Source: an uncultured Bacteroidales bacterium (GTDB taxonomy: Bacteria > Bacteroidota > Bacteroidia > Bacteroidales > Bacteroidaceae). From it: DNA of 64,000 nt. The notes under the pieces were generated by a model. It was given only the letters and a program-made list of their open reading frames with translations, was not told the origin of the DNA and did not search any database. Location of the stretch: positions 1-64,000 of the forward strand of contig CACYBB010000011.1 of NCBI GenBank assembly GCA_902772585.1, read 5' to 3'. A program made the position numbers and the translations under genes. How positions within the stretch are numbered: the stretch's first letter is position 1; every line of letters starts with the position of its first letter. Shown piece after piece: positions 13,824-30,098 of this stretch.

Positions 13824-15599
13824 ATGAAGAAACTGACATTTATATATTTAGGTATAGTGATTGCTGCATTGTGTAGTTGCAATGGCAGAAAGATGATGGC
13901 GCAATTAGATGAGATCAGTAAAATTGCCGATGATAACCCAGACTCCGCACTTACGTTGCTAAGTAAGTTCGATACTGACAAGAATGAATGGGGAAAAGGT
14001 GACAGGATGCATTATGAACTCATAAGACTAAAGGCTGAAAATAAATCGGGTATAAAATTCACATCAGATTCGATTATCAAAGATGTTGTTGCTTATTATA
14101 AAGACAACGGAAATGCCAATGAAATAATGCTTGCATATTATCTGTTAGGACGGGCTTATAGCGATATGGAAGAGGCACCAGAGGCATTACAAGCTTATTA
14201 TGATGCCATTTCTATGGCTGACACGACCAATACATCTTGTGATTTTAGAACTTTAACAGTCGTGTATGGACAAATGTCCCGAATATTCCATAAGCAGAAT
14301 CTTCCTCATGATGAGATATGGGCGTTGAGGCATTATGTTGAGTATATTCGTAGGAATGGGAATCTTAAAGATTATATTATGGAAACAGAGCAGCTTATAA
14401 GGCCTTATTATCTTCTTAACAAAAAGGATAGTGTGCTAAATCTAATAAATAATACATACTCGTCATTGAAACAGTTGGGGGAACACCAAGAAGCTGCGGA
14501 TGCATTAGTCGTTTCAATATCTATTTATTTAGAACGTGGTGATTTGACCAAGGCAAAACATGCGATGGATATATTCGAAAAAGAGTCTGGATTGTTTGAC
14601 GAGTATGGGAATATAGCCAAAGGCCGTGAACATTACTATTATACAAAAGGCCTATATGAACTTGCTATCAACCAACTTGGTTCTGCAGAATATTATTTCC
14701 GTAAAGCCATCAAATATGGATATCTTTCAGAAGGATACAAAGGATTACTATCCATATATAGAGAAAAACATAATATTGATTCTGTGAATTGTTTTTCCCG
14801 CTTATATGAGGCAGCACAAGACTCTTTGCATAATAAGATGCAGACAGACGCAATTCACCAGATGTCTTCTCTTTATAACTACAGCCGAAGTCAAAAAGAG
14901 GCTGAACAAGAAAGAGAAAAGGCTCAAGATAGACTATATCTGCTTAGTCTTATCTCGTTTGCAACAATAGTTTTATTAATAGTTATTATTGTCGTTGTTT
15001 GGCTGTATAGAAAGAATCAGGAAGAAAAAAAGGCAAGAATAGCCGAATTAGAAGAAACACTTAATAGTGCAAAATCCCAAAGAAATGCTATTCAGGAGGA
15101 ATTAAGGATATTAAAGGAAAAAGACTATGAGAGTATAATAGCGATTAAAGAAAAACAAGAGATTGAGTTGTCAAAAAGAATAGAATTCCTGGAGGCTAAG
15201 AACAACAATAAAAAGGATGCAAATGACATCACACGTATTGATAATCTTGAAAATTTTCTCGGTAGTGCCATCGCACAACAGTTTATTAAGAAAGCAACCA
15301 GCAAATCTGAAAGAATTAAGCCAACAGGGACTGAATGGAACTTATTGATATCTCAATTTAGCAAAGACATCCCAGTTACATATAAGTCTTTTGGACAAGG
15401 TAGATCTTTATCACAATTAGAACAGCGCATATGCATTCTTCTTATTCTTGATATCCAAGAAAAGAACATATCACTTATGACAGATTCTTTTGCCTCAACG
15501 GTATCGAATGCAAAATCACGTGCTAATGAAAAACTTTATGGAAAGAAAGATGCTCATTCGCTTAAAAATAACCTCATAAATAGGCTTCATCGCTCTTGA
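13824..15599 (+). CDS. TPR membrane regulator with C-terminal HTH
   Basis: This 591-residue protein has a lipoprotein-like N-terminus (MKKLTFIYLGIVIAALCSC). Tetratricopeptide-like helical repeats follow to about residue 350, then one membrane segment at about 371-393 (LSLISFATIVLLIVIIVVVWLY) and a long charged coiled coil (395-470). The C-terminus (about 528-590) resembles a helix-turn-helix: LSQLEQRICILLILDIQEKNISLM then SNAKSRANEKLYGK. This is a known Bacteroidota layout that senses outside the membrane and binds DNA inside. It is the first gene inside the putative attL, and its AT-rich base use differs from the flanks. It is the obvious candidate regulator of the peptide locus. Confidence 0.8.
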   Translation: MKKLTFIYLGIVIAALCSCNGRKMMAQLDEISKIADDNPDSALTLLSKFDTDKNEWGKGDRMHYELIRLKAENKSGIKFTSDSIIKDVVAYYKDNGNANEIMLAYYLLGRAYSDMEEAPEALQAYYDAISMADTTNTSCDFRTLTVVYGQMSRIFHKQNLPHDEIWALRHYVEYIRRNGNLKDYIMETEQLIRPYYLLNKKDSVLNLINNTYSSLKQLGEHQEAADALVVSISIYLERGDLTKAKHAMDIFEKESGLFDEYGNIAKGREHYYYTKGLYELAINQLGSAEYYFRKAIKYGYLSEGYKGLLSIYREKHNIDSVNCFSRLYEAAQDSLHNKMQTDAIHQMSSLYNYSRSQKEAEQEREKAQDRLYLLSLISFATIVLLIVIIVVVWLYRKNQEEKKARIAELEETLNSAKSQRNAIQEELRILKEKDYESIIAIKEKQEIELSKRIEFLEAKNNNKKDANDITRIDNLENFLGSAIAQQFIKKATSKSERIKPTGTEWNLLISQFSKDIPVTYKSFGQGRSLSQLEQRICILLILDIQEKNISLMTDSFASTVSNAKSRANEKLYGKKDAHSLKNNLINRLHRS

Positions 15600-15687
15600 C
15601 GAATTTTGACGAATATTTTTTGTAACTCATTGTGTTATAATAGGTTTTAGGGGGGGGGTAATTTCTTTCTCAACGAATTTTGACGAA
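15596..15687 (+). promoter_or_regulatory. Paired direct-repeat operators and G9 tract upstream of the export operon
   Basis: TTGACGAATTTTGACGAA at 15596-15613 is two TTGACGAA words 10 bp apart, one helical turn. TCAACGAATTTTGACGAA at 15670-15687 repeats the arrangement. A run of nine G lies between them at 15650-15658. The layout looks like regulator binding sites upstream of the promoter at 15706-15737. Confidence 0.5.
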
Positions 15688-15705
15688 ACGAAAAAGCCTC
15701 AGATT

Positions 15706-15737
15706 TTTGGTTGAATAATTATGTTGAGATACCTTTG
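15706..15737 (+). promoter_or_regulatory. Promoter of the peptide export operon
   Basis: TTTG at 15706-15709 (-33) and TACCTTTG at 15730-15737 (-7) are separated by 20 bases. The DUF3244 gene begins 27 bases downstream, followed by the VKOR, exporter and adaptor genes with minimal gaps. Confidence 0.8.
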
Positions 15738-15763
15738 CAGAAAAATACAAATATGCAAAGGAA

Positions 15764-16129
15764 ATGAAAAGAAGTATTTTAGCTTTAGTATTGATTTTAT
15801 CGGCATCTTTATCTGATGCCAAAGTGCAACACGTATGTGATGAAGTGTTTCTTCAGGTATCACTTACAGACCCGACAGAAGATCAAAAGCCAATTAAGAG
15901 AAGTCCTGTTGTAATTCCTTCTGTCAGTCTTGAAGGGCACAATTTGATTTTTGCTACATCTTGTGATGGCTGCATTCTCCGGTTACTAAACGAAGACGGC
16001 GATGTGGAATACATGGTGGTTATAACTGACGAGACCACAAGTTTAACGTTGCCGTCATATCTCTCTGGGGAGTATGAACTCCAGATTGTTCGTGGCTGTT
16101 ATTGTTTCTACGGTTACATTAACCTTTAA
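15764..16129 (+). CDS. DUF3244 secreted protein
   Basis: This 121-residue exported protein has the signal MKRSILALVLILSASLSDA. The mature part matches the DUF3244 pattern: a beta-sandwich-like domain with RSPVVIPSVSLEGHNLIFAT, a central variable strand pair and the closing GEYELQIVRGCYCFYGYINL. DUF3244 proteins are small periplasmic Bacteroidota proteins with no known reaction; they are often encoded beside regulators of this TPR type. It is the first gene of the export operon, 10 bases before the VKOR gene. Cysteines at the C-terminus (CYC) could be substrates of that oxidase, which is inference. Confidence 0.8.
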   Translation: MKRSILALVLILSASLSDAKVQHVCDEVFLQVSLTDPTEDQKPIKRSPVVIPSVSLEGHNLIFATSCDGCILRLLNEDGDVEYMVVITDETTSLTLPSYLSGEYELQIVRGCYCFYGYINL

Positions 16130-16139
16130 CGCATTACGG

Positions 16140-17444
16140 ATGAATCAAGTACAATGGGCATTACACCAATTTCTACAGAGTTTAGGCATTAAGGTGCCTT
16201 ACTCTGTAGTCCGAAAATTGCTTGACACTCCAGTTGGTACAACACTTAGAGGAATAAGCGATTCACTTGATTCATTGCACATTGACAATAGTGTCTATCA
16301 ACTTCCTAAAGAATATCTAAAGGAGTTGGACTATCCATACTTGATGGTGCTTTCAAATAGTAAGGAGGGGTTTGCAATCATTACAAATGACAATGAAAAA
16401 GAAAAGGCTTTGCCCAAATGGGACGGTGTAGTATTAGCCGCTAAAAAAACTAATGCCACACCTATATATAACTATGTATGGCTACGTGATGCCATTGATA
16501 ACATATGCAATAGTCACCTAGAGCTAATTTTCTCTGCCATAGTCGTCGCATTTGCGATGTTATTACAACCAAACCTTTTCACTATGAGTCATGTGTTTTT
16601 GTCTCTCATTGGCATCTGGGTTTCGATTTCTTTACTCAGAAAGGATTATTCTGAAAGTAATTCCACAGGAAGATACTGTAAAATCGGACGTTTCATAGAT
16701 TGTCAAAGTGTACTTGATTCCAAGGGTAGCAGATTTTGGAGATTTCTTCGATTGAGCGACTTGGGCTTTTTCTTCTTTTCTACTCAACTGTTCCTTGTAT
16801 TGATTTCTAACAACGGATGGCAGACATTTTCACTGATACTCCTAATAATTGGCTGTTGTTTTACAGTCTATTCGGTAGTGTATCAAATAACTGTCATCCA
16901 CAAGGTTTGCTTGTACTGTATGTCAGTCAACCTAATTACATGGTTAGACACCATTCTTATAACCACTAATGCACCATTACCAAAGGTTGGCACCCCCTAT
17001 ATTTTTATATTCTCTGTTTTAATATCTTATTTGATATGGTCTTTTACAGTCCGCAACGTGAGTCTTTCTCGGCAGACATATTCATTGAGGAATCGTTTGT
17101 CGGTGCTGTATAGAAGGGGACTCTTTGAATGGCTATTGTCGCAGGAAAGAGAACTTGAAGAAATTAGTGACAATTATGCAGAATGCAGTGGGATAAATGG
17201 AACAGATACAATAACCGTTTTTGTTCACCCCCAATGCAAAAAATGCAAAACTGTTGAGGCAGCCATTTCCCAATTAAGCCAAATAGCCAGAGTCAAAATT
17301 GTATCATTAGCAGCAAAAGCCCCAGAGGTTAGACTTTATTGTGAGAGGAATCAAATAGTAAGAACTCCGACAATTGTTGTAGATGGTCATGAATTGCCGG
17401 AGGTCTATGATATAGGGGATCTGAAATACATTTTAAAATCATGA
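16140..17444 (+). CDS. Fusion of C39-like, VKOR and thioredoxin-like domains
   Basis: This is a 434-residue membrane disulfide oxidoreductase. Residues 1-115 resemble a C39-like domain without the catalytic Cys (LDTPVGTTLRGISDSLDSL, YLMVLSNSKEGFAIITND). The central part has four to five membrane segments of a vitamin K epoxide reductase homologue, with paired cysteines in YCKIGRFIDCQSV and the redox pair VCLYC. The C-terminal thioredoxin-like domain has HPQCKKCK (CxxC). Such fusions make disulfide bonds, and here the likely clients are the cysteine-bearing exported peptides. The reading frame stays open upstream to 16074, but the ATG at 16140, 10 bases after the DUF3244 stop, is more plausible. 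The exporter overlaps its end by 4 bases. Confidence 0.85.
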   Translation: MNQVQWALHQFLQSLGIKVPYSVVRKLLDTPVGTTLRGISDSLDSLHIDNSVYQLPKEYLKELDYPYLMVLSNSKEGFAIITNDNEKEKALPKWDGVVLAAKKTNATPIYNYVWLRDAIDNICNSHLELIFSAIVVAFAMLLQPNLFTMSHVFLSLIGIWVSISLLRKDYSESNSTGRYCKIGRFIDCQSVLDSKGSRFWRFLRLSDLGFFFFSTQLFLVLISNNGWQTFSLILLIIGCCFTVYSVVYQITVIHKVCLYCMSVNLITWLDTILITTNAPLPKVGTPYIFIFSVLISYLIWSFTVRNVSLSRQTYSLRNRLSVLYRRGLFEWLLSQERELEEISDNYAECSGINGTDTITVFVHPQCKKCKTVEAAISQLSQIARVKIVSLAAKAPEVRLYCERNQIVRTPTIVVDGHELPEVYDIGDLKYILKS

Positions 17445-19642
17445 AGTCTTTCCCTATCTATACCCAGCATGATGCCATGGATTGCGGCCCGACCTGTTTA
17501 AGGATGGTAGCCGCATTCTATGGCAGGCGGTATTCCCTGCAATATCTGCGGGAGAACTGTTTTATCTCCCGACTGGGGGTGTCGATGCTGGGTATCAGTG
17601 AAGCCGCAGAGAAACTAGGAATGCATACCATAGGGCTACGTATTCCTATTTCACGGCTGATAGAGGATGTGCCCCTGCCTTGCATCATCCACTGGAACCA
17701 GAACCACTTCGTGGTACTCTATCGGATAGAAAAAAATAAGAATGGACACTTGTTTCATGTTGCAGATCCTGCAGGCAGTAAAGTAACATATACAGAAGAG
17801 GAATTTAAAAGATGTTGGCTATCTGGCAGAAATGATGGCGAAGATGAAGGTGTTGTGCTCTGTCTGGAGCCAACACCAGATTTCTATAGTCATTCAGATG
17901 AAGACGATGACAAAAAGAATAAGCGAAGCATGCTGTTCCTGTTTGAGTATCTTCGACCATATAAGAAACTGATTCTACAACTCTTTATCGGATTAGCTAC
18001 AGGCTCGTTGATACAGCTTATCCTGCCATTTCTCACACAGTCTATCGTTGACTTCGGTATTACCAATCAGAATTTAGGCTATATTTATTTAGTGCTGATA
18101 GCCCAAATGGTGCTCGTTATCAGTAGCACATCTGTGGAGTTTATCCGAGGCTGGATATTGCTTCATATCGGCATGAGGGTGAATATCTCGCTGATATCTG
18201 ACTATCTGGCCAAACTAATGCGCCTATCCATCGCCTATTTTGACACGAAGATGACGGGCGACATTCTTCAGCGCATCAATGATCATACTAGAATACAAGA
18301 GTTTTTGACCAGTACCAGTCTGTCAACACTCTTCTCCATTGTCAACATCATCATTTTTGGACTGGTCATCCTATTCTATAACTGGATGATATTCTTTATA
18401 TTCTTTATCGGTAGTGGCTTATATATTGCCTGGGTATGGGGTTTCATGAAACGGAGGGCTGTTCTCGACCATAAGATGTTTGCACAAAATTCGGCCAATC
18501 AAAGTAATATGGTGCAACTGGTGAGTGGCATGCAGGAAATCAAACTAAATGCCTGCGAACAGCAGAAACGCTGGGAATGGGAGCATATACAGGCTCGAAA
18601 ATACAGGATTACCGTCAAAGGGCTAGCCCTGTCACAATACCAGCAGTCGGGTGGCGTGTTGATAAATCAGATGAAAAATGCTATTATTACAGCCCTTGTT
18701 GCGGCATTGGTTATAAAAGGAAACATCACTCTTGGCATGATGCTTTCCATCCAATATATCATTGGACAATTGAATAGTCCTGTTGACCAACTGATAGGTT
18801 TTGTCCGTCAATATCAGGATGCCAAATTGAGTTTAGACCGACTACAGGAAATCTATAACAGAGACGACGAACGCCCTGCAGGCAAGACCAAGATTACAGA
18901 TATCAAGAATGCAGACATTAGGATAGAACATCTGACATTCAGATACGACAAACTCAACGAGGTGCCTACACTTGATGACATAAACCTGGCAATTCCTAAA
19001 GGTAAGACAACTGCCATAGTAGGTCTTAGTGGCAGCGGAAAAACCACACTGCTTAAGATGATATTAGGTTTCTATGAACCAGACAAGGGGAAAGTAGTGT
19101 TGGGCTGTTCGGATATTGCCAACTATGACAAACGGGAGTGGCGTAAGCACTGCGGTACAGTGATGCAGGACGGATTCATCTTCTCAGACACTATAGCCCG
19201 AAATATCGCCCCAGGAGAAGAGCGGATTGATGAAGACAGAATGCGTGAAGCAGCAGAAACAGCCAACATCAGAGATTTCATCGAGGATTTGCCATTAGGC
19301 TATAATACAAAGATAGGAGCTGAGGGCCATGGACTAAGCATGGGCCAAAAACAGCGTATCCTTATAGCTCGCGCCGTCTATAAGAATCCTGAGTTCATCT
19401 TTATGGATGAGGCCACAAACTCGCTTGATGCCAATAACGAGTACCTGATAATGGAAAAGCTCAACCGTTTTATGCAAGGCAGGACAGCTATAGTCATCGC
19501 CCATCGTCTGAGCACAGTGAGAGATGCCGATAAAATCGTGGTGCTACAAGGAGGAAAGATTTGCGAGCAGGGCACCCACGAAGAACTGATTTGCCGTCAT
19601 GGGGTATATTACACTTTAGTCAAGAACCAATTAAATGTATAA
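17441..19642 (+). CDS. C39-peptidase ABC exporter for double-glycine peptides
   Basis: This 733-residue peptidase-containing ABC transporter removes leaders after Gly-Gly and exports the core. Residues 1-140 form an intact C39 protease: Q9, catalytic C15 in DAMDCGPTC, H89 in NQNHFVVL and D109 in HVADPAG. Six membrane segments follow at about 165-450. The nucleotide-binding domain (490-730) has GLSGSGKTT (Walker A), LSMGQKQR (signature), FIFMDEAT (Walker B) and the H-loop AHRLS. Its partners are the HlyD-like adaptor 6 bases downstream and presumably a TolC-type outer-membrane channel not encoded here. Leaders with the matching pattern are encoded at 21038 and 24754. Confidence 0.95.
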   Translation: MKSFPIYTQHDAMDCGPTCLRMVAAFYGRRYSLQYLRENCFISRLGVSMLGISEAAEKLGMHTIGLRIPISRLIEDVPLPCIIHWNQNHFVVLYRIEKNKNGHLFHVADPAGSKVTYTEEEFKRCWLSGRNDGEDEGVVLCLEPTPDFYSHSDEDDDKKNKRSMLFLFEYLRPYKKLILQLFIGLATGSLIQLILPFLTQSIVDFGITNQNLGYIYLVLIAQMVLVISSTSVEFIRGWILLHIGMRVNISLISDYLAKLMRLSIAYFDTKMTGDILQRINDHTRIQEFLTSTSLSTLFSIVNIIIFGLVILFYNWMIFFIFFIGSGLYIAWVWGFMKRRAVLDHKMFAQNSANQSNMVQLVSGMQEIKLNACEQQKRWEWEHIQARKYRITVKGLALSQYQQSGGVLINQMKNAIITALVAALVIKGNITLGMMLSIQYIIGQLNSPVDQLIGFVRQYQDAKLSLDRLQEIYNRDDERPAGKTKITDIKNADIRIEHLTFRYDKLNEVPTLDDINLAIPKGKTTAIVGLSGSGKTTLLKMILGFYEPDKGKVVLGCSDIANYDKREWRKHCGTVMQDGFIFSDTIARNIAPGEERIDEDRMREAAETANIRDFIEDLPLGYNTKIGAEGHGLSMGQKQRILIARAVYKNPEFIFMDEATNSLDANNEYLIMEKLNRFMQGRTAIVIAHRLSTVRDADKIVVLQGGKICEQGTHEELICRHGVYYTLVKNQLNV

Positions 19643-19648
19643 TGCACG

Positions 19649-20941
19649 ATGCCCAAGAGAAATAAGGATAGTATTATAAGAAGTGAGGACGTACAGGAGA
19701 TCCTGTCAACACCTCCCCATACACTGCTGAGCGTTGGCTCGTCAGTGATTGGCGGTATATTGCTGGTTCTGTTCATCGGATGCTTTATATTTAAATACCC
19801 AGATACGATTACCTGCACTGTTACAATCACAAAAACAGAGCCGCCTGTATGGATTGTGGCTAAAACATCTGGCAGATTGCAAGAGTTGTACGCCCAAGAC
19901 GGACAACATGTCAATGCTGGTGATGTGATAGCGGTGATAGAAAATCCTGCCAATACTCAGGATGTGCTGAAACTTGACTCCATATTGTCCGTACTGTTCG
20001 AAAATGGAGAAGGAATAAACCTCCATCTTGATGATGCACATCTCGGCAGTATCCAGAGTACTTATACGACATTAGCCAAGGCAATCACTGATTATAATAA
20101 TTTTGTGAATAAGAATCTCTATGACCAGCGCATTGCCGCAGAGGAAGCACAGCTAAGGCCTTACTCGGAATATGTAGAATCCATTGAGAAACTGGTTTGC
20201 TATAGCCAACGTATAAAATTCCTAAGTAACGAAAACTATCAACGGGAAAAGACTCTCCACGACAAAGGACTAACTTCCACTTCTGACTTGGAATCTACCG
20301 AACAATCCTTACTTAGCAGTAATATGTCTGCCGAACAGATACGCTCATCGTTGGCTAATGCCAAAATCCAAATGGCACAAATATATAACACCATCTCAGA
20401 ACTGAAGCTGCAAAAAGAACAGGAACGACAACAGCAGGAGACTATACTTTGGTCAGCATGGGAGGGCACAAGGACGGCTATTAGAGAGTGGAAACAGACA
20501 TATCTGCTTCAGAGTCCTATAGAAGGATTCGTGTCATATAACAACCTGTGGAAGATAAACCAGAACATCACTTCCAGCGACAAGGCGTTTTCCGTTATCA
20601 GCAGCAGCAAGGAACAATCAATAGGCAAGGCAAAGATTCCTGTTGCAGGTTCTGGCAAGGTAAAGATAGGTCAGCGGGTCAATATTCAACTAGATGGTTA
20701 TCCCTATTTGGAGTATGGTTTTCTGACTGGGTGTATAACTTCTGTTGCACTGATGCCCGATGAGGACATCTATACAGCGACCTTTGAACTACAGAATAGC
20801 CAAACGACATCATACGGCAAGGCAATTCGTCAGACTGGCGACCTTTCTGGAGTTGGGGAGATTATCACCGATGACCTTAGTGTAGCAGAAAGGATAATAG
20901 GACCTCTCAAGTATCTGTTCCATAGGAATCTTCGTAATTAA
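19649..20941 (+). CDS. HlyD-family periplasmic adaptor
   Basis: This 430-residue membrane fusion protein has a short cytoplasmic N-terminus, one membrane segment (about 31-50, GSSVIGGILLVLFIGCFIF) and a lipoyl/barrel half (VWIVAKTSGRLQELYAQDGQHVNAGDVIAVIENP). A long Glu/Gln-rich helical hairpin follows (about 140-265), then the returning barrel (LLQSPIEGFVSYNNLW, VAGSGKVKIGQRVNIQLDGYP). It bridges the ABC exporter to an outer-membrane channel. It is the last gene of the export operon; the shared upstream element of the first peptide cassette begins at its stop codon. Confidence 0.93.
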   Translation: MPKRNKDSIIRSEDVQEILSTPPHTLLSVGSSVIGGILLVLFIGCFIFKYPDTITCTVTITKTEPPVWIVAKTSGRLQELYAQDGQHVNAGDVIAVIENPANTQDVLKLDSILSVLFENGEGINLHLDDAHLGSIQSTYTTLAKAITDYNNFVNKNLYDQRIAAEEAQLRPYSEYVESIEKLVCYSQRIKFLSNENYQREKTLHDKGLTSTSDLESTEQSLLSSNMSAEQIRSSLANAKIQMAQIYNTISELKLQKEQERQQQETILWSAWEGTRTAIREWKQTYLLQSPIEGFVSYNNLWKINQNITSSDKAFSVISSSKEQSIGKAKIPVAGSGKVKIGQRVNIQLDGYPYLEYGFLTGCITSVALMPDEDIYTATFELQNSQTTSYGKAIRQTGDLSGVGEIITDDLSVAERIIGPLKYLFHRNLRN

Positions 20942-20983
20942 CATATTAGTGCACAAAATATGGGTCAATTTGGTGATATGACC
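20942..20983 (+). promoter_or_regulatory. Shared cassette control element, copy A
   Basis: The first 26 bases (20942-20967) are identical to 24666-24691. They include the palindrome GTGCAC and end in GGTCA. GGTCA (20963-20967) and TGACC (20979-20983) form an inverted repeat with an 11-base spacer. The start of precursor A is 54 bases downstream. It could be an operator or a 5' RNA hairpin. Confidence 0.75.
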
Positions 20984-21037
20984 TTAATTTTCACCTATGA
21001 GAGTTAACAAATTAAGTTTAATTAATTTTTTTTCAAG

Positions 21038-21241
21038 ATGAACAAAACAAATTTAGAAATGTTCAAAATGAGCAAGGCTCAGATGAACAATGTGAATGGT
21101 GGAAGAAAAATCAAATGCGTTGTCCTTGACGTTGAAAGCGGCTGGTCCAAAGAGATTGTAATGGAATCAGCTGTATCTGTTGATGATGCTGTTGAGGTTT
21201 TAAATGATGCTTATGGCGATTGGGCATTTATTACCTGTTAA
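21038..21241 (+). CDS. Double-glycine peptide precursor A
   Basis: This is a 67-residue precursor. The 22-residue leader (MNKTNLEMFKMSKAQMNNVNGG) ends in Gly-Gly and has hydrophobic residues at -12 (Met), -7 (Met) and -4 (Val), the pattern read by C39 exporters and typical of Bacteroidales double-glycine leaders. The core of 45 residues begins RKIKCVVLDVESGW and ends YGDWAFITC. It has two cysteines, at core position 5 and at the last residue, so one long-range disulfide could make a near-closed ring. The core is acidic and shows no lanthipeptide-like Ser/Thr/Cys richness. The coding region is followed by a 14-bp perfect stem-loop. Confidence 0.88.
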   Translation: MNKTNLEMFKMSKAQMNNVNGGRKIKCVVLDVESGWSKEIVMESAVSVDDAVEVLNDAYGDWAFITC

Positions 21242-21244
21242 ACA

Positions 21245-21281
21245 AATGAGAGTATGCCTATTTAGTTGGCATACTCTCATT
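21245..21281 (+). terminator. Stem-loop after precursor A
   Basis: A perfect 14-bp stem (21245-21258 with 21268-21281) encloses a 9-base loop and starts 3 bases after the precursor stop. No T tract follows. It may act as an mRNA stabiliser or partial terminator that keeps the precursor more abundant than the downstream genes. Confidence 0.7.
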
Positions 21282-21295
21282 AAAGAGGCGATTGT

Positions 21296-22174
21296 ATGCG
21301 TATGAATCCTTTTTTTAACATTATATTAAAAATGACTATTCCTTCATATCTGATAATGATGAATAGTCATGCAAGTAATTCTACTATTCTATCAGTGACT
21401 TATGATGTTTATTATCAAAAGTTTGAGGAAGAACCCAAACAGGAGAAAGACTTGATGCGTTTGGATATTGGGGAAAATTCATCGCAATTTGTCAGTGTTA
21501 TTGGCGAGTTCCTGGCAAAAAACAAAAGTGACGTTGTTAGCAAAAGGGTTAAGAATCCTTATGTTGGTTATGCTTCTATGCGGGATGAAGTGTTTAAAAA
21601 CACCCCCAAAAGTGGCTATATGCAATTTGTTCACATGCCTGGCTGGATTTCTTGTCGCGATAAGATTGATGGGCTGTTTGATTGGCAACTCCAAGAGGGT
21701 GATACCATTGTATGCGAATATACTTGCCACAAAGCTATTACCACATTCAGAGGTAGAACATGGACGGTATGGTACACACTTGGCTTGCCATATAGTGATG
21801 GTCCGTGGAAATTTTGCGGCTTGCCGGGTTTGATACTATACGCATCTGATTCAGAAGGCTGTTTCCGTTTCAATTGTATCGGTATAGAGAAAGGTGATGG
21901 GCATGATATTAAAATGAAGACACCGAAATCAGGTGTCATTGACACATATATGCCAGAACGTGTTGCTGAAATTATGATGTTGGAGTATTGGGATCCTTCT
22001 GCTCATTTTTCTCAAATGACAGGAATGTCGGGGCAGGTAACAAGGATGTGGGATCCTCAGGGAAATGAAGTTAAGATAGTTCCCAAGACACGTATCCTCT
22101 ACGAGAAGTTCCCAGGTGTTAATGTCAAGAAGAAATATCCGCAGAAGAAAAGTTCTACTAAAAAGAAAAAATGA
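21296..22174 (+). CDS. GLPGLI family protein
   Basis: This is a 292-residue probably exported protein. The N-terminus is hydrophobic (FFNIILKMTIPSYLIMM). The family hallmark is clear: WTVWYTLGLPYSDGPWKFCGLPGLILYASD, containing GPWKFCGLPGLI. The start of the domain (SVTYDVYYQKF) is also typical. GLPGLI proteins are Bacteroidota periplasmic proteins of unknown reaction, frequently beside TonB-receptor-like barrels, as here. A lysine-rich tail ends the protein, and the barrel gene overlaps it by 4 bases. In this cassette it takes the slot that the radical SAM enzyme takes in the second cassette. Confidence 0.87.
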   Translation: MRMNPFFNIILKMTIPSYLIMMNSHASNSTILSVTYDVYYQKFEEEPKQEKDLMRLDIGENSSQFVSVIGEFLAKNKSDVVSKRVKNPYVGYASMRDEVFKNTPKSGYMQFVHMPGWISCRDKIDGLFDWQLQEGDTIVCEYTCHKAITTFRGRTWTVWYTLGLPYSDGPWKFCGLPGLILYASDSEGCFRFNCIGIEKGDGHDIKMKTPKSGVIDTYMPERVAEIMMLEYWDPSAHFSQMTGMSGQVTRMWDPQGNEVKIVPKTRILYEKFPGVNVKKKYPQKKSSTKKKK

Positions 22175-24663
22175 AGCGTTTGCTGCTATACCTTATTATA
22201 TTAGTCTCTCTCACTGGTAAAGCGCAGACCTTCACAGGGCGGGTGACGGACAAGAGTGGGAAACCGCTTGTGTCTGCCTCCGTCGTGGCAAAAGGGGATG
22301 GCGGCTCTGTCGTTGCATTTGCAAGGGCTAGGCAGGATGGACATTTCTCGTTGACCATTCCGCAAGGGAAAGAGGCGAAGAGTGTTGAGTTTCTGATGAT
22401 GGGCTTTGGCAAGGTGGTGATTCCGCTGAAAGATTATAAGAATGGCCAGACCATCAAGATGCAAGAACAGGCCATTGCCTTAAAGGAAGTGAAAGTAACG
22501 CCACAGCGCATCCGCGAGCAAGGCGACACGCTGACCTATTCCGTAGAATCCTTTAAACTGAAACAGGACCGTTCGATAGCCGATGTAATAGCTAAAATGC
22601 CGGGATTGGAAGTTCTCCCATCAGGTACTATCAGGTATCAGGGCAAGGCTATCAACAAGTTCTATATAGAAGGAATGGACTTGCTGGGTGGTAAGTATGC
22701 GATGGCGAGTGAAAACCTTTCAGCTGACAAAGTGAAGAGCGTACAGGTATATGAGAATCATCAACCCGTGAAAGTTCTCAAAGATATAAAGTTCTCTGAA
22801 CAGGCTGCACTCAATCTGGTACTGAAAGACGAAGCTAAGAATGTATGGCAGGGTGTGATAGATGTGGCTACAGGTTATGGCGACGACTGGTTGCGCGATG
22901 CTCAATGGCTGGAGATGGTATTTGGACGCAAAAAGCAGAGCATTTCGATGGTAAAGGCCAACAATACTGGCAAGGATATTGAGCACGAAGTTGCCGATTT
23001 GACGCAGTTCGACAAGACTGCTCCTACAGAGGATGGTATATTGAACAATATTAATCTGGGGGCACCAAGTCTCGATGCGAGAAGGAGCAAGTTCAATGAT
23101 ACCTATATTGCCGCCACCAACTGGCTGTTCAAGACGAAAAAGGACGATGATCTGAAACTGCAAGTGACAGGGCTTTATGACCGGAGCCGACAGCAACAGG
23201 ACAGGCAGACCGTCTATCTGGATGCCGACTCTGCCATTATCACTGAGGAACAGACAGCAACAAGTACCCGTAGCGAATGGCAGGCAGAACTGCTCTATAA
23301 GGCAAACCACGATAAACAATATCTGTCGAACACACTAAAAGGCTATATTGACTTTAACAAGAATGAGGGACTTTCAATATTAAACGAACGCCCGACGCCT
23401 CAATGGGTTGAGCCTCGCAAACGATACATCGTGGATAACCTCGAACTCATCAATAAACTGAAGAATGGGCAAAGTTATTCCGTCACCTCATTGTTTAGTT
23501 ACAGTTATCTGCCAGGCACGTTACTTCTAACCAATGACAGCACTCAGCAAATCACTCAACAAATGCTATATTGGAATGCATACGCCTATTATCAACACAG
23601 CATCAAGCAGTTAAAAGTGACATGGCAGGCAGGTTTTGAAACAAAAACGCAGTGGCTGACACTGATCAACAAAGACCGCTACAGTGAATACCTGCCATAC
23701 GTGGAGCCGTCAATCAGTTATCGTGAAGGAGCATGGACCATCAGCCTGAACGGGCGGCTTAGTTGGCTCATGCGTCAGTATCAGAAGAAGAACAGCCAGA
23801 ATTTCCTTGCCGAGCCGCGCCTTTTCATCCGCTACAGTCTGACTTCCAAACTTGAGATCAGCGGCAGTTACAGTTACCGATGGACTCCCAGCGACATCAC
23901 CACTATCACCTGTCAGCCTTATTACACCGATTACATCTCTTGTCAGCAAGGCTCAGGACAGTTTGAAAACACCACGGGACAAACGGCAAATATAGGATTA
24001 GGCTATCGTAATGTGATGACAGGTATGTTCAGTAGATTCACATCTGGTTACAGCAATCTGCGTGATGCCGTTATCTATCAGAGTCATCTTGTGAATAATG
24101 TCTATATTCGTCAGGCTACCGATTTCCGTCAGAACCGTGAGACCTATAGCCTTTCTGGCAGTTTGGGAAAATCCATCTTTTGGGCAAAGCTCAGTATAAC
24201 ACTGAACGGAAGTTACTCATGGACCAATTACGACCTGCTGATCAATCACTCTCTTGCTCGTCAGCATACCCGCAACGGTAGAGCCTCGCTGCGGTTCTCA
24301 TTGAAGCCTACTCGCTGGCTCTCCATAGAGGAAGAGTCTGCTTACCACTACAGCCACCAGTCGATGACAAATGCACTTCAATCGTGGAACCATGAGTTAA
24401 AAGTGTTCATATTGCCAGGCAAATGGCAGATAGAATGGACGAATGAACTCTATCATAGTAACGATAAATCCGTTTCTACCAATTATTTCAGCGATCTCTC
24501 CATATCCTATCGCGCCAAGACCTTCGAGGCAGGACTTTTATGCTCTAACCTCTTCGGCACACGCAACTACCGCCGTCACTACACCACCGACTATACCGAC
24601 ATCATCGTCCTAAACCAGATGAGGCCAAGGGATTTCTTATGCAGAATACTGTTTAACATATAA
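22171..24663 (+). CDS. TonB-receptor-like outer-membrane barrel, cassette A
   Basis: This 830-residue outer-membrane protein has the signal MKRLLLYLIILVSLTGKAQ and an N-terminal carboxypeptidase-regulatory-like domain (FTGRVTDKSGKPLVSASVVAK). A plug-like region follows (DVIAKMPGLEVLPSGTIRYQGKAINKFYIEGMDLL), then a long beta-barrel with alternating aromatic strands and the C-terminal phenylalanine-containing strand RDFLCRILFNI. There is no SusD partner, which argues against glycan uptake. It may export, bind or give immunity to the peptide, or be a self-receptor; this is open. Its GC content is higher than that of the neighbouring cassette B genes. Confidence 0.85.
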   Translation: MKRLLLYLIILVSLTGKAQTFTGRVTDKSGKPLVSASVVAKGDGGSVVAFARARQDGHFSLTIPQGKEAKSVEFLMMGFGKVVIPLKDYKNGQTIKMQEQAIALKEVKVTPQRIREQGDTLTYSVESFKLKQDRSIADVIAKMPGLEVLPSGTIRYQGKAINKFYIEGMDLLGGKYAMASENLSADKVKSVQVYENHQPVKVLKDIKFSEQAALNLVLKDEAKNVWQGVIDVATGYGDDWLRDAQWLEMVFGRKKQSISMVKANNTGKDIEHEVADLTQFDKTAPTEDGILNNINLGAPSLDARRSKFNDTYIAATNWLFKTKKDDDLKLQVTGLYDRSRQQQDRQTVYLDADSAIITEEQTATSTRSEWQAELLYKANHDKQYLSNTLKGYIDFNKNEGLSILNERPTPQWVEPRKRYIVDNLELINKLKNGQSYSVTSLFSYSYLPGTLLLTNDSTQQITQQMLYWNAYAYYQHSIKQLKVTWQAGFETKTQWLTLINKDRYSEYLPYVEPSISYREGAWTISLNGRLSWLMRQYQKKNSQNFLAEPRLFIRYSLTSKLEISGSYSYRWTPSDITTITCQPYYTDYISCQQGSGQFENTTGQTANIGLGYRNVMTGMFSRFTSGYSNLRDAVIYQSHLVNNVYIRQATDFRQNRETYSLSGSLGKSIFWAKLSITLNGSYSWTNYDLLINHSLARQHTRNGRASLRFSLKPTRWLSIEEESAYHYSHQSMTNALQSWNHELKVFILPGKWQIEWTNELYHSNDKSVSTNYFSDLSISYRAKTFEAGLLCSNLFGTRNYRRHYTTDYTDIIVLNQMRPRDFLCRILFNI

Positions 24664-24665
24664 AG

Positions 24666-24707
24666 CATATTAGTGCACAAAATATGGGTCATCGTGGTGT
24701 TATGACT
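24666..24707 (+). promoter_or_regulatory. Shared cassette control element, copy B
   Basis: Bases 24666-24691 are identical to 20942-20967. The inverted repeat is kept: GGTCA (24687-24691), an 11-base spacer, then TGACT (24703-24707), which at the last base would give a G-U pair in RNA. The start of precursor B is 46 bases downstream. Confidence 0.75.
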
Positions 24708-24753
24708 TAAAATGCTTCACCATAATGTAATTTATTAATTCAACTTCAATAAG

Positions 24754-24945
24754 ATGAAAAAGATTGATTTCGTTGAGAAAAGTAACGCACATGTTACATT
24801 TGAAAATCGTCTAACGAATGCTGCTTTAGGTGGCATTGTTGGAGGAGACAGAGTAGAAGAACTTCGGCAATACTGCGATCCTTGGAGTGATTGCGATGCT
24901 TGGAATTGTAATCCTGACTGTACTTGCAAAGGCAATATGGCTTAA
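24754..24945 (+). CDS. Double-glycine, five-cysteine peptide precursor B
   Basis: This is a 63-residue precursor. The leader of 31 residues ends ALGGIVGG, with Leu at -12, Leu at -7, Ile at -4 and Gly-Gly at -2/-1, matching the pattern of precursor A. The 32-residue core begins DRVEELRQYC and has cysteines at core positions 10, 16, 21, 25 and 27, with Trp at 13 and 19 and many Asp/Asn. The adjacent gene is a radical SAM/SPASM enzyme, so thioether or other carbon-linked crosslinks are plausible. An odd number of cysteines means disulfides alone cannot pair them all. I do not recognise the family of the core. Confidence 0.85.
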   Translation: MKKIDFVEKSNAHVTFENRLTNAALGGIVGGDRVEELRQYCDPWSDCDAWNCNPDCTCKGNMA

Positions 24946-24950
24946 ACATT

Positions 24951-24997
24951 AGGAGGTCGCGTTGGGCGACGCATTTGCCTAACGCTTCCTCTTTTTT
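24951..24997 (+). terminator. Terminator-like hairpin after precursor B
   Basis: AGGAGGTCGCGTTGGGC (24951-24967) pairs with GCCTAACGCTTCCTC (24977-24991), interrupted by two short internal mismatches, and a run of six T follows. It stands 5 bases after the precursor stop and before the radical SAM gene, so partial termination would favour precursor over enzyme. Confidence 0.8.
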
Positions 24998-25021
24998 ACA
25001 TTAACAGAAATAAATATAAGT

Positions 25022-26305
25022 ATGATTTGGTCAATATATAATTATCTTTTTGAATTAGGTAGTAACATTTACTTATATAATTCATACACAAACAATCTGA
25101 TGCGCTTTGATATTGACGACAAGTACAGATTAGAGTCTTGTGCAAAAGGTGAATTTGCAGATGTCGCGTCGCCTTTTCTTGAAGAATTGAAAAAGCAATA
25201 TGTTGTCATCGACAATGATATAAACATCTACAATCGTATCAAATTGGAAAGGACATTAGCAAGATATGACAAGAACTATTTATCCTTAACAATCGCACCT
25301 ACTACTGCATGTAACTTTAGATGCTCTTATTGTTATGAGTCCGGTATTAAAAGTAAAAATGTATTGGACGAAGAAAAGATGGCAAATAGTATCATTAAGT
25401 TTACTAAAATTTTCAAGAAGACAAATTATCTGAGAGTTACATGGTATGGAGGGGAACCTCTTCTGAAGTTTGGATTTATTGAAAGGTTGTCAAAGATGTT
25501 TATGCAAGAGTATCCTAATTATCAAGCCTTTATGATAACCAATGGGTATCTCCTTGACGATGAGAAAATTTCAAAACTGAAACATCTAAAGATAATGGGA
25601 TTGCAAATCACCATAGACGGATTAGAGCAAGTTCACAATAAACGCCGTCCCCATTACAAAAATGCAGACAGCTATAAGAGAATCGTTCACAATATAGATA
25701 ATTTGTTCTTCAAGTATCCTGATGTCAGAGTTGCGTTAAGAGTTAATATAGACAAGTCCAATTCTGAGGAATACCATAAACTGTATAATTTCATGACAGG
25801 AAGATACCATGACTATAAGATAAACATACACCCTGGCTATGTTACGGATGATTTTTCCTCAAAAGCCAATTGCAATTGTATGGATTTTTCTGATAGGGGC
25901 AATTTCGTAATTAAACAACATGATTTGTATGGTATCCCAATATCATTATATCCTAAGCCTTCATTTGGAGAATGTAGCGCAAGACACTTGAATAGTTTTG
26001 TAATTGGTCCATCTGGAGAACTCTATAAATGTTGGAATGACATAGGATTACAAGATAAAGAGATAGGCAACATTTCTGATTTTTCAAATTTAAATAGTCT
26101 TTGCTTAAAATATCTTTTAGCAAATGACCCTTTGGAATCTGATAAATGTAAAAAGTGTTTTTGTTTCCCAATATGCGATGGAGGATGTCCGTTTAAGAGA
26201 ATTTTCTCGGCAGACTCTTTTTTAGAGGATTATTGCTCGAAACGTGAAGCATACATAAAAGAACTTATAATAAAGCATACAGAGGATCAAATTAAGAAGG
26301 AATAA
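25022..26305 (+). CDS. Radical SAM/SPASM peptide maturase
   Basis: This is a 427-residue enzyme. The radical SAM cluster motif is TACNFRCSYC, with C97, C101 and C104 binding the 4Fe-4S cluster that cleaves S-adenosylmethionine, and GGEPLL follows in the usual place. The C-terminus is a SPASM domain for auxiliary clusters: CSARHLNSFVIGPSGELYKCW, then CKKCFCFPICDGGCP and a last Cys in EDYC. Enzymes of this kind modify ribosomal peptides, and the five-cysteine precursor is 76 bases upstream. The reaction (thioether, C-C bond or epimerisation) cannot be read from sequence. The gene is AT-rich and overlaps the barrel gene by one base (TAATG). Confidence 0.93.
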   Translation: MIWSIYNYLFELGSNIYLYNSYTNNLMRFDIDDKYRLESCAKGEFADVASPFLEELKKQYVVIDNDINIYNRIKLERTLARYDKNYLSLTIAPTTACNFRCSYCYESGIKSKNVLDEEKMANSIIKFTKIFKKTNYLRVTWYGGEPLLKFGFIERLSKMFMQEYPNYQAFMITNGYLLDDEKISKLKHLKIMGLQITIDGLEQVHNKRRPHYKNADSYKRIVHNIDNLFFKYPDVRVALRVNIDKSNSEEYHKLYNFMTGRYHDYKINIHPGYVTDDFSSKANCNCMDFSDRGNFVIKQHDLYGIPISLYPKPSFGECSARHLNSFVIGPSGELYKCWNDIGLQDKEIGNISDFSNLNSLCLKYLLANDPLESDKCKKCFCFPICDGGCPFKRIFSADSFLEDYCSKREAYIKELIIKHTEDQIKKE

Positions 26306-28368
26306 TGAGACATATTATAGTATTATTTGTAACATTATTATCTACAAATTCAGCAACTGCACAGCAGCAAACAACAGGCAATGATTCTATTAATCATATT
26401 ATTCAGTTACAAGAAATCGTTGTTAAAGGAAATAATTTGGTGTTAGAAGATGACCATATCATATGCATTCCAACAGAGTTACAACGTAAACATACACATA
26501 GTGGTTTTGACTTGTTATATCGGATGATGATACCGAATGTGTCTGTTGATTATCAGAAAGGAGAAGTTGTTACACCAGCAGGGCAAGCAACACTCTACAT
26601 AAATGGACGTAAAGCTACTTATCGTGAGATAGAATCGTTACGACCTAAAGAAGTTGCAAAGATAGAGTATTTTGATTCTCCTTCAGGAAAATATTCTATC
26701 GATGCCTCATCCATAAATTTTGTTTTAAAAGAACCTACGTCTGGAGGATATACTTTGCTGGAAGGTAAACAAGGCATTGGCTATCTTATTGGTGATTACA
26801 ATCTTGTTTCAAAATACTCTTTCAACAATTATAATATTAATGTATGGGGCGGATACAATGTTTGTGGTTTAAATGACAATGATGAAGAGGCTGAAAGATA
26901 TGTAAATTTCAAAACAGGAAACTTAATCAAGAATAGCAGTTACTCTCTAAATAATCGTCTGGAAAACTTGTATGGGATTGCAAGTATCAGCAAAATTGAT
27001 AAAAAGCAGATGTGGATGATAAGGGCTGGCATCGAACGCCAAAAAACAGGTAAAGATACCAATGAAGGCTTTATTTCTTACTCTTCTACATACCCATCCG
27101 CAAGATTTTTAAAAAAAGAAAATGAGAGATACGTTAAACCGACGACATATTTATATTATTCAAAAGATATTTCTGATTCTAGACATATAGATGTGGTTCT
27201 TGACGGTTACTATTCAAAGCGTAAATACGAAAGGTACTATGATGAATTGGACTACACATTCCAGTCAAATGCTTCAGAGGACTATTTATATACCAAAATT
27301 AATGCGAATTACAGTATCTCACTGAAAGATAAGAGCAGTATAACATTCAGCTTGCATGAATATTTTAGAAATAGTCAAATTGCTTATGAATTAAGTGAAA
27401 ATAGGAAACAGCATCTATATTCCTCTGAAACAATTTTATTTGCTGATTATTCTAAAAGAATATATGGAAATATACTATTAAATATTCATCCAGGACTTTC
27501 TTATATGACATATCAATTGTCAGGAAGCCCATCTATAAGCCATTTAACTCCTCGACTTAATTTGATGGGTGCATATATGATTAGCAAGAAAAAAAGATTG
27601 CAATTATCATTAGCATTAGGGAATACATATCCTAGTCCCAATACAATAAATAATGCGGAACAGCGGATAGATCGTATTATGATTCGTCGTGGGAATCCGA
27701 AAATGGACAACAGCATCCTTCTGATGCCTAGAATTAGTTACAACTGGAGTCTCGACAATATGTCTTTTTCCTCAAACTTCCAATACTATTATATAAATCA
27801 CGCAATTGCCAATGTTTATCATTACGATGGAGACAACCTCATTAATACTTTTTCCAGCGAAAACAGATATCAACGGACTTCACTTGATTTATCTGCTGTT
27901 TACAAACCATCAACTAAAATTAATATAAAAATAAACGGAGGCTATAAACATACGAAATTGGCAGGTGATGTCAGTGAAAGTGTGCATACATTGTGGAGCA
28001 ACTTTCAAGTAGACGTGTCAAGAAAAGACTTGTACGCATCTTTCGTAGTGAATACTCCTCAAAAACAGATTGTTAACAACCAAATCATCCAGAAGATTCC
28101 ATGGCAATATTCAATAACGATAGGATGGGACTATAAAATGCTTTCTTTGAAAACAAATATAAATAATCTATTCTTTATGCATCGAGAGGTAACTAGCTCT
28201 GCGGTGTCTGATGTATATTCTTTTTCATATTCAAACAATAATCAAACATATAATCAAAATGCATCAATAAAAGTAGTATATACATTTGAATATGGGAAAA
28301 AGGTAACTCGTTCATACAGGTACAATTCTGTTGGTAGTGAGAGTGCTATATTAAAAGGGAAATTGTAA
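26305..28368 (+). CDS. Outer-membrane beta-barrel protein, cassette B
   Basis: This 687-residue protein has the signal MRHIIVLFVTLLSTNSATAQ, a plug-like region (LQEIVVKGNNLVLEDD, YINGRKATYREIESLRPKEVAKIEYFDSPSG) and a long barrel rich in Tyr, Asn and Ser strands. It resembles TonB-receptor-like barrels without the carboxypeptidase-regulatory-like domain seen in the cassette A barrel. It has no SusD partner. It is translationally coupled to the radical SAM gene, so its role is tied to peptide B: secretion, receptor or immunity. It is strongly AT-rich. Confidence 0.83.
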   Translation: MRHIIVLFVTLLSTNSATAQQQTTGNDSINHIIQLQEIVVKGNNLVLEDDHIICIPTELQRKHTHSGFDLLYRMMIPNVSVDYQKGEVVTPAGQATLYINGRKATYREIESLRPKEVAKIEYFDSPSGKYSIDASSINFVLKEPTSGGYTLLEGKQGIGYLIGDYNLVSKYSFNNYNINVWGGYNVCGLNDNDEEAERYVNFKTGNLIKNSSYSLNNRLENLYGIASISKIDKKQMWMIRAGIERQKTGKDTNEGFISYSSTYPSARFLKKENERYVKPTTYLYYSKDISDSRHIDVVLDGYYSKRKYERYYDELDYTFQSNASEDYLYTKINANYSISLKDKSSITFSLHEYFRNSQIAYELSENRKQHLYSSETILFADYSKRIYGNILLNIHPGLSYMTYQLSGSPSISHLTPRLNLMGAYMISKKKRLQLSLALGNTYPSPNTINNAEQRIDRIMIRRGNPKMDNSILLMPRISYNWSLDNMSFSSNFQYYYINHAIANVYHYDGDNLINTFSSENRYQRTSLDLSAVYKPSTKINIKINGGYKHTKLAGDVSESVHTLWSNFQVDVSRKDLYASFVVNTPQKQIVNNQIIQKIPWQYSITIGWDYKMLSLKTNINNLFFMHREVTSSAVSDVYSFSYSNNNQTYNQNASIKVVYTFEYGKKVTRSYRYNSVGSESAILKGKL

Positions 28369-28518: not shown

Positions 28519-29505
28519 CTACAATTTTAATTGACTCGTCTTCTTTTTCTTACGCTGCATCTGGCGACGAAAGGCTTCATCTTCTGGGTCATAGACAGGA
28601 TTAGTTGTATCGAACAATCCCAATGATGGAATAGGAATGGATGAACTGGAAGAGTGCTGCTGAGACTCTTCATGATGTTCTTTTTGTTCTGGTCTTTGTG
28701 CTTGCCTGGGTTGTTCGCTTTGGCCTGTCTGCTGCTGACAAGAGGCTTTGGTATCCTGTTCCTTATGTGCATTCCTCTTCAGAATATTGTCCATCTTTGT
28801 GTATGTCATTCCTCTTCGAATCTGCGAAGCCTTGAAGGCCTTACCGTCTTTGGTGACGCGAAGACCCTGTATGTCGGCAATCTTAGTACTTCCATCTTTC
28901 TTCATCACAATGTCCATCGTAACACCGTTTCGCTTTAGTTCATCTGTGAATTCTCGCCATGAAGTGGCCTGTGCCAGTGTGTTCATAATAATGTGATAAA
29001 CCTCGTATCTCGTCTTTTCATTTCCTCTTAATCGCTCGGTTTTAGTGGTTCCCTTGCCATTGGAAAAAGTGAGTCCGTACTTCCGTTTAAGCAGTTTCGT
29101 CACCTGTTCGTTCCGTCTAAAATCGTTCTGGTCTGAGATGGTCTTGCCCTCGTTGTTGATACGGTTATAGACCAGATGGCAGTGGGGATTGCCATTATCA
29201 AAGTGGCGGACAAGGATAAACTGAGTGTCCTTGATGCCCATCAGTTCCATATATTCCATTGCTATCCGGGCCATCATCTCGTCTGTCAGTTTGTCCTTGT
29301 CCTTTGGCAGAAAGCTCAGAGCGATATGGCCTACGGGTTTGGAGATCCTGGGATTCAACTGCCGCTGGAACTCAAAGCTGTCAATGATGTCCTGCGTTGA
29401 CATCAGCAACACACCGTCGGAGGCAAGGATTTTCGCATCTTCCTTGTCTGTCACGTATTGGACGCACCGCTTGAACGATGCAGCCTTCATAATCTTTCCT
29501 ATCAT
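28519..29505 (-). CDS. Mobilization relaxase
   Basis: This 328-residue relaxase of the MobA/VirD2-like mobilisation-nuclease family nicks oriT and carries the strand into the recipient. The metal-binding histidine motif is HFDNGNPHCHLVYNRI, with H101, H108 and H110. The N-terminal part (MIGKIMKAASFKRCVQYVTDKEDA) is typical of Bacteroides MobB-like relaxases. After about residue 245 the protein becomes a low-complexity Gln/Glu/His tail. It overlaps mobC by 4 bases. The element has no coupling-protein or type IV secretion genes, so transfer would rely on a resident conjugative element. Confidence 0.93.
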   Translation of the reverse strand: MIGKIMKAASFKRCVQYVTDKEDAKILASDGVLLMSTQDIIDSFEFQRQLNPRISKPVGHIALSFLPKDKDKLTDEMMARIAMEYMELMGIKDTQFILVRHFDNGNPHCHLVYNRINNEGKTISDQNDFRRNEQVTKLLKRKYGLTFSNGKGTTKTERLRGNEKTRYEVYHIIMNTLAQATSWREFTDELKRNGVTMDIVMKKDGSTKIADIQGLRVTKDGKAFKASQIRRGMTYTKMDNILKRNAHKEQDTKASCQQQTGQSEQPRQAQRPEQKEHHEESQQHSSSSSIPIPSLGLFDTTNPVYDPEDEAFRRQMQRKKKKTSQLKL

Positions 29506-29891: not shown

Positions 29892-29968
29892 TGCTTCAGT
29901 GTATTCACTTTAGTGACTGGACTGACTGAATCTGCGACCAGTGGGGAGCGGATTTCCCTCGCAACGGG

Positions 29969-30019: not shown

Positions 30020-30098
30020 CAAAACGTAGTTTCCAGACGATTGTGCCACCTTCGGTGTCAAACCACGCCTGTCTGGTCACAGACTCCAGTCTTATCGC

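Follow-up and report, generated by a model that had tools for sequence, protein, structure and literature searches.

Two kinds of exporter-linked peptide locus have been described in the Bacteroidales. Bacteroidetocin loci combine a double-glycine (Gly-Gly) peptide, a thiol oxidoreductase and a C39 ATP-binding cassette (ABC) exporter, and their products kill Bacteroidales (PMC6671954, available portion). The ribosomally synthesised and post-translationally modified peptide (RiPP) clusters BGC1-9 bring together Gly-Gly precursors, radical S-adenosylmethionine (SAM) enzymes, peptidase-containing ABC transporters (PCATs), membrane fusion proteins and outer-membrane proteins (OMPs), with TPR-like genes in BGC2 and 9 and mixed modifying enzymes per cluster (PMC10352776, available portion); two ranthipeptide clusters in Bacteroidota are also listed among rumen bacteriocins (PMC13289728, available portion). 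The locus described here lies in a 64,000 nt stretch of DNA from an uncultured Bacteroidales bacterium with a Prevotella-like genome (assembly GCA_902772585.1, contig CACYBB010000011.1, positions 1 to 64,000 of the forward strand; hereafter the window). It is a real variant of these already known loci, in which the peptide of one cassette is probably closed by a disulfide, that of a second is probably modified by a radical enzyme, and one exporter appears to be shared by both.

All eleven genes, two of which encode Gly-Gly precursors, lie on one strand at 13824..28368 (+), and checking against the list of open reading frames (ORFs) found them where a preliminary description, made from the sequence alone, had placed them (Table 1). 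The order is regulator, DUF3244-like protein, VKOR fusion, C39 ABC exporter and HlyD adaptor, followed by cassettes A and B. As that description also held, both cassettes run from an upstream element through a Gly-Gly precursor, a stem-loop and a partner gene to a barrel, the partner being a GLPGLI protein in A and a radical SAM/SPASM enzyme in B. The presence in the Bacteroidales of a cysteine-containing Gly-Gly peptide with a thiol oxidoreductase and a C39 ABC exporter recalls the bacteroidetocin loci; however, those are four-gene regions with one peptide and a protein of five transmembrane (TM) segments, the available text mentioning no GLPGLI protein, radical SAM enzyme or cassette-linked barrel (PMC6671954). 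Bacteroidetocins A and B have four cysteines, core A two and core B five, a comparison by count. The BGC1-9 clusters share gene content with the locus, but in the accessible text GLPGLI does not appear, two precursors are given for BGC5, which is said to be without transporters, and no cassette exchange is described (PMC10352776). Searches of literature titles and abstract openings, which covered subscription literature little, found among the entries listed no description of a link between GLPGLI and Gly-Gly peptides, of a VKOR-C39 fusion or of a pseudoknot bacteriocin leader, and nothing on DUF805 RNA. Provisionally, then, clusters of radical SAM enzymes, exporters and OMPs and disulfide-containing Gly-Gly toxins were already known in the Bacteroidales, and it is the mixed, swappable arrangement with GLPGLI that looks new; it offers a testable connection between this uncharacterised family and secreted Gly-Gly peptides.

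Table 1. Features of the two-cassette locus, in order along the window
Feature	Coordinates	Strand	Evidence
Putative membrane-anchored TPR regulator: lipoprotein-like N terminus, TM-like segment, C-terminal helix-turn-helix (HTH)-like region	13824..15599	+	ORF and homologs
Small DUF3244-like protein	15764..16129	+	PF11589 16.5 bits, under cut-off of 25
C39-like (catalytic residues lost), VKOR and thioredoxin fusion	16074..17444	+	PF07884 2.3e-18
C39 peptidase-containing ABC exporter, catalytic residues intact	17441..19642	+	Pfam domains and residue check
HlyD-family periplasmic adaptor	19649..20941	+	PF13437 (HlyD_3) 1e-12; TIGR01843 9.4e-20, under its cut-off
Palindrome-like TTAGTGCACAAA of upstream element A, operator candidate	20946..20957	+	Sequence
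H-type pseudoknot candidate of leader A: S1 GGGTCA/TGACCT, S2 GGTGA/TCACC	20962..20995	+
Precursor A: Gly-Gly leader and a core of 45 residues (Cys at 5 and 45)	21038..21241	+	ORF
Stem-loop between precursor A and GLPGLI, 14 bp	21245..21281	+	z -6.5
GLPGLI family protein, sole one found in assembly	21296..22174	+	TIGR01200 137 bits
TonB-dependent-receptor-like barrel A, carboxypeptidase-regulatory-like N-terminal domain	22171..24663	+	PF13715/PF13620 under cut-off; profile A4
Palindrome-like part of upstream element B, identical to A	24670..24681	+	Sequence
H-type pseudoknot candidate of leader B, stems similar to A	24685..24723	+
Precursor B: Gly-Gly leader, core with five Cys (YCDPWSDCDAWNCNPDCTC)	24754..24945	+	ORF; homologs in L122, L123
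Terminator-like stem-loop with T tail between precursor B and radical SAM gene	24951..24993	+	z -4.9
Radical SAM/SPASM peptide maturase (predicted), outside named families	25022..26305	+	PF04055 4.2e-16; TIGR04085 over cut-off
TonB-dependent-receptor-like barrel B, plug-like N terminus by eye	26305..28368	+	Aligned in A4 with barrel A relatives

The intact exporter and its HlyD adaptor were both read correctly at the outset. The exporter matches Peptidase_C39 (1.5e-31), ABC_membrane (4.1e-29) and ABC_tran (7.4e-32) and keeps catalytic Cys15, His89 and Asp109. With an N-terminal C39 domain carrying these residues, TM and ABC domains, and adjacent precursors with double-glycine leaders, it is by sequence a PCAT; its relatives in the PDB are an ABC-type bacteriocin transporter (4ry2) and ComA. 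No second C39 exporter was found in the assembly (2.86 Mb, 88% complete), where, apart from this gene, C39 matched just the VKOR fusion. Hence both precursors, if C39-exported, would use the same exporter, barring the unassembled part, and the proposal that one exporter serves two cores is well supported by this comparison. TolC-family matches of this genome sit on other contigs.

Related loci likewise keep Gly-Gly precursors beside the exporter. A contig scan with the exporter gave 244 relatives, and the 80 best loci were retained; L141 was taken as the same contig as L006 and not counted as extra evidence. In L005-L008, from Prevotella or Prevotellaceae, the exporters are 85-91% identical to that of the window, yet the cargo varies: L005 pairs precursors with a thioredoxin-like protein and with GLPGLI, L006 pairs one with a thioredoxin-like protein, and L008 (Prevotella khp7) has one GLPGLI cassette and two TIGR04149/TIGR04148 cassettes, whose pseudo-radical SAM proteins are under the TIGR04150 cut-off; no cargo was recognised in L007. 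Precursor B recurs in two of the fetched radical SAM genomes, G128 (L122) and G061 (L123). In each, the radical SAM gene and barrel B come after it, and the cassette stands immediately behind an exporter that has a different radical SAM-barrel cassette already. Against the window, the exporter, radical SAM enzyme and precursor of these genomes are 50-54% identical and the barrel 42%. Against each other, they are 70% identical in the exporter, 85% in precursor B, and 90% in both its radical SAM enzyme and its barrel, whereas the radical SAM enzyme and barrel of the other cassette are 30% and 23% identical; a single blastn match (5.9 kb, 81%) extends from within the exporter gene to beyond the end of cassette B. 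A kept exporter and cassette B next to a diverged neighbour is the pattern expected if one cassette has been exchanged.

Gly-Gly/GLPGLI and radical SAM cassettes stand beside one full-length exporter in four loci, those of the window, khp7, G185 and G075, the exporters of the last three also retaining the Cys, His and Asp motifs. That of G185 (L124 and L218) runs regulator, DUF3244-like protein, VKOR fusion, precursor, GLPGLI, barrel, exporter, adaptor, second regulator, radical SAM enzyme, precursor, barrel; that of G075 (L197 and L219) runs regulator, DUF3244-like protein, precursor, radical SAM enzyme, barrel, exporter, adaptor, three precursor-GLPGLI units, barrel. G185 has a second exporter locus (L203), so its exporter is not unique. 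A partial fifth mixed locus, in G042 (L194 and L220), has a radical SAM gene, an exporter and three GLPGLI genes, with no precursor immediately before GLPGLI. The comparison supports viewing the cassettes as exchangeable modules, of differing chemistry, around a kept exporter. Short C39 or exporter fragments also occur near peptide cassettes (L197 14508-15122; L203 12729-13832, on the reverse strand of the fetched stretch; L218 1224-1673), and are possibly scars of such exchange.

Precursor A matched no named family in Pfam and NCBIfam searches. The GLPGLI-linked cores (n=8: window, L005, L008, L124, three in L197, and L206) have two or three cysteines each, the first at position 5-7 in seven and the last no more than four residues from the end in all eight. 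The VKOR-thioredoxin fusion reported earlier stands as far as its VKOR domain is concerned; comparison with L006 makes a start near 16140, not 16074, more likely, and a degenerate C39 domain at its N terminus had been missed. Matches to PF13192 (2.4e-4) and PF03412 (1.2e-3) are under cut-off, and the N terminus scores 19.1 bits against Peptidase_C39 alone and 22.2 with its frame neighbours (cut-off 22), a relative in L218 reaching 5.1e-9. When 28 of 30 VKOR-labelled proteins, those over 380 residues, were aligned with five exporters, the catalytic cysteine was lost in every fusion (replaced by Asn in 23), as was the histidine, the aspartate being kept in 12. The C39-like domain of HlyB holds its substrate, and by analogy the dead C39 domain of the fusion could hold Gly-Gly leaders, which might be a means of forming disulfides in exported peptides. 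General disulfide machinery is said to be lacking in Bacteroides (PMC6671954, available portion). Searched with the window sequence, the fusion is rare, being found in 2 of 398 genomes of the genus (E 1e-20) and 6 of 393 of the order (E 1e-15), own genome included; it is in view in the window, L008, G185 and L206, but not in L005.

The SPASM domain of the cassette B enzyme scores 56 bits against TIGR04085 (cut-off 27). The closest named families, Clo7bot (210 bits), TIGR04463 (204) and CefB (189), have cut-offs of 600, 525 and 600 respectively and were rejected as identities for it, as was TIGR04148 (cut-off 300), which does not appear in the top 25 of 78 families, a list that ends at 50.5 bits. 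Neither precursor matched TIGR04149: precursor B matched only NGO1151 (13.7 bits) and precursor A nothing. The GG-Bacteroidales radical SAM system (TIGR04148/04149/04150) is alike in that L008 has two such cassettes beside the same exporter type, but the window precursors and enzyme do not match its models among the matches listed. Core B keeps the consensus YC-PW--CDAWNC-PDC-C across the window, G128 and G061. Relatives of the enzyme (E 1e-30 or better) occur in 32 of the 398 genus genomes, own included; of the remaining 31 genomes, 19 were sampled, together with one VKOR locus, and among the 19 stretches, viewed by eye, an exporter gene is present in 17, a barrel after the radical SAM gene in 18 and a nearby Gly-Gly precursor in 13.

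The repeated upstream element is borne out: before both cassettes it opens with an exact 26-nt repeat, matched in none of 100 shuffles, and its 22-nt core was not found elsewhere in the genome at up to three mismatches. The stem-loops after the precursors, also described there, both fold much better than shuffled sequences (0/200 each; Table 1). Each leader has a palindrome centred on TGCA, then the pseudoknot candidate, whose stems covary in L005 (GGCCAA/TTGGCT and GGCGGA/TCTGCC), L006 (GGTCAA/TTGACT and GGCAGA/TCTGCC), L033 from Bacteroides (GGCCAA/TTGGTT and GCGATAA/TTATCGC) and L012 (AGCTG/CAGCT and TTGGA/TCCGA); stem pairs were listed by hand, the MAFFT alignment A1 having moved helix S2 by one column in some rows. 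Scanning found a pseudoknot in 10 of 15 leaders, which were picked after the pattern had been noticed in several; as some are homologous, a combined P value for them overstates their independence. Nine of the 15 have one scoring at least 25 at -60 to -80 from the start codon, and none was found in L008:12293, three leaders of L014, or L019. The same scanner found one in 24 of 410 control leaders, three meeting both score and position, among them L005:8106, which is also one of the 15 and precedes a lipoprotein-like gene rather than a precursor. An earlier, stricter scan found a pseudoknot in 14 of 67 leaders that precede precursors; the rate was 7.5% in shuffles and 5.3% among 150 control leaders. 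The cassette B homologs in G128 and G061 have, by eye, a plain hairpin leader, whereas cassette B of the window has the cassette A type, which suggests that the leader follows the locus and not the cargo. Nested RNA folds calculated for five leaders had z-scores between -1.2 and 0.4, and sigma-70-like promoter matches were no more frequent than in shuffles.

The window leader matched no Rfam family, either at gathering score over the whole window or at E up to 10 over 20900-25040, so it was rejected as DUF805b RNA (RF02914) or any other Rfam family; an Rfam search of seven radical SAM loci also gave no leader family. DUF805b RNA is likewise a short element before Gly-Gly precursors, standing about 20 nt before the start codon in all three loci where it was found (L013 1828-1860, L048 6969-7001, L064 3510-3546), and may itself be a leader of exported peptides. 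Precursor leaders of L067, L069 and L074 (Mucilaginibacter) show by eye palindromes with differing cores (TCGCGA, GTGCAC, CTCGAG), then pseudoknot-like repeats. Again by eye, a leader element that separates HlyD from a Fib_succ-like gene at L005 14835 keeps S1 with no downstream S2 partner.

Each cargo has its own barrel, as proposed. Barrel B has no Pfam or NCBIfam match and barrel A no Pfam match over cut-off; a profile of 12 barrels (A4) matched the SusC N-terminal domain (4.7e-12) and a TonB-receptor domain (3.4e-8) and, more weakly, the ZnuD barrel (8.9e-5) and Cir plug region (0.0027), which points to both being TonB-receptor-like. The GLPGLI gene passes TIGR01200 (cut-off 50), and no second one was found in the assembly. 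Relatives (profile A2, E 1e-20) are present in 118 of the 398 genus genomes, own included, from which 40 stretches were sampled, comprising the top matches and a hand-picked lower sample; dropping one placeholder left 39. A C39 ABC gene of over 600 residues is in view at five (L194, L197, L203, L206, L207; three by a stricter script flag), and a precursor lies directly before GLPGLI in two of these five and in none of the other 34, L203 having been viewed separately. Among solved structures, the only GLPGLI relatives found were residues 51-140 of PNGase F-II, in its N-terminal part, together with a chain called Glpgli family protein.

The explanation we consider most probable, and hold with some confidence, is a multi-cargo double-glycine peptide secretion locus, in which predicted gene functions would account for cleavage, disulfide, crosslink, receptor role and biological effect as follows. 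The TPR regulator would control the locus, each precursor being transcribed from its own leader of palindrome and pseudoknot candidate, and the stem-loop after each precursor would yield more precursor than partner mRNA. The radical SAM/SPASM enzyme would modify core B before export, probably via its cysteines. As established for this exporter class, the C39 domain would cut both leaders after GG, and exporter, HlyD adaptor and a TolC-family duct encoded elsewhere would secrete both cores. The VKOR-thioredoxin fusion may oxidise the two cysteines of core A, perhaps kept near Gly-Gly precursors by its dead C39 domain. Least certainly, each barrel, with GLPGLI on the side of A, would serve its own peptide as outer-membrane receptor or in self-protection, and not as an exit duct.

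Several observations weigh against this explanation. A full-length exporter was not seen in the fetched stretch at 34 of the 39 GLPGLI loci, although some stretches stop near the GLPGLI gene and exporters may be missed. G075 has two-cysteine GLPGLI-linked precursors, yet no VKOR gene in its fetched stretches. The radical SAM enzyme is under the cut-off of every named maturase family among the matches listed. The scanner found no pseudoknot before the GLPGLI-linked precursors of G185 (L124), G075 (three in L197) and G084 (L206), nor before precursor B of G128 and G061, and in six further leaders of radical SAM loci it found one, in another place (L126, at -94). In the other 397 genus genomes the leader motif was unmatched, except for two matches inside coding sequence.

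These results removed three narrower candidates. The pseudoknot leader is not a general mark of mixed loci, being missing before five GLPGLI-linked precursors, and so appears to belong to the nearer relatives of the window; nor does the motif define a genus-wide regulon, both outside matches being within coding sequence. GLPGLI as a dedicated maturase was rejected on the 34 loci with no full-length exporter in view. The preliminary description had made it the maturation partner of cassette A, which neither these loci nor the solved relatives support; it is probably receptor-side, as part of a receptor or binding module.

The alternative with the strongest claim, standing only a little short of an even chance, is that the cores are two bacteriocin-like toxins of a bacteroidetocin-like weapon cluster, with barrels and GLPGLI giving self-protection. 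The gene content and killing activity of bacteroidetocin loci set out above favour it, but neither core matches a named family, and the four-gene bacteroidetocin regions, in the accessible text, have a five-TM protein and no GLPGLI, radical SAM enzyme or barrel (PMC6671954).

Rather less probable is a role in scavenging or signalling, the peptides being secreted and then taken back via the cognate barrel, and stand-alone GLPGLI-barrel pairs receiving the peptides of others. Secreted peptides are recaptured through a cognate receptor in methanobactin-type systems, and the barrels here are TonB-receptor-like; GLPGLI-barrel pairs with no exporter in view are common, several beside a relative of the TPR regulator, but such pairs may serve unrelated ligands. 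A broader proposal, on balance unlikely as a whole, is a cassette-exchange platform in which exporter and regulator are kept, peptide-plus-receptor modules of differing chemistry are swapped, and the leader follows the locus in the window, GLPGLI and TonB-receptor-like barrels forming the receiving half of a peptide exchange. If that were true, wherever GLPGLI-barrel pairs stand alone in Bacteroidota they would be listeners to, or cheaters on, the peptides of neighbours.

It is improbable that the barrels are instead dedicated outer-membrane exit ports, as OMPs in Bacteroidales RiPP clusters were read. They adjoin the exporter, many relatives have just short HlyD-like proteins, and OMPs are discussed as export parts (PMC10352776, available portion), but the profile matches point to TonB receptors, the TolC-family matches of this genome fall on other contigs, and GLPGLI-barrel pairs occur with no exporter in view. 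Mobilisation genes 150 bp downstream might suggest that two unrelated peptide operons came together next to a mobile element by chance, or are decaying there, but with ORFs open throughout, 26 identical bases shared by the upstream elements and the mixed architecture recurring in other genomes, this is very improbable indeed.

The genes at the 5' end of the locus could be only partly assigned. The first was described as a TPR-HTH regulator; the gene is present, with homologs upstream of the exporter in L006 (80% identity) and L005 (55%), but its Pfam TPR matches are under cut-off and the HTH is a by-eye reading. Similarly, the DUF3244 gene is present, with a 69% homolog in L006, but its family match is under cut-off. 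Relatives of the regulator also lie directly upstream of GLPGLI genes in L173, L175, L179, L181, L183, L184, L187 and L211, with no exporter or precursor in view. At the other end, the minus strand of 28519-30626 carries the mobilisation genes (Relaxase PF03432, NikA-like/MobC and DUF3408), and given their distance from barrel B the locus appears to abut a mobilisable element.

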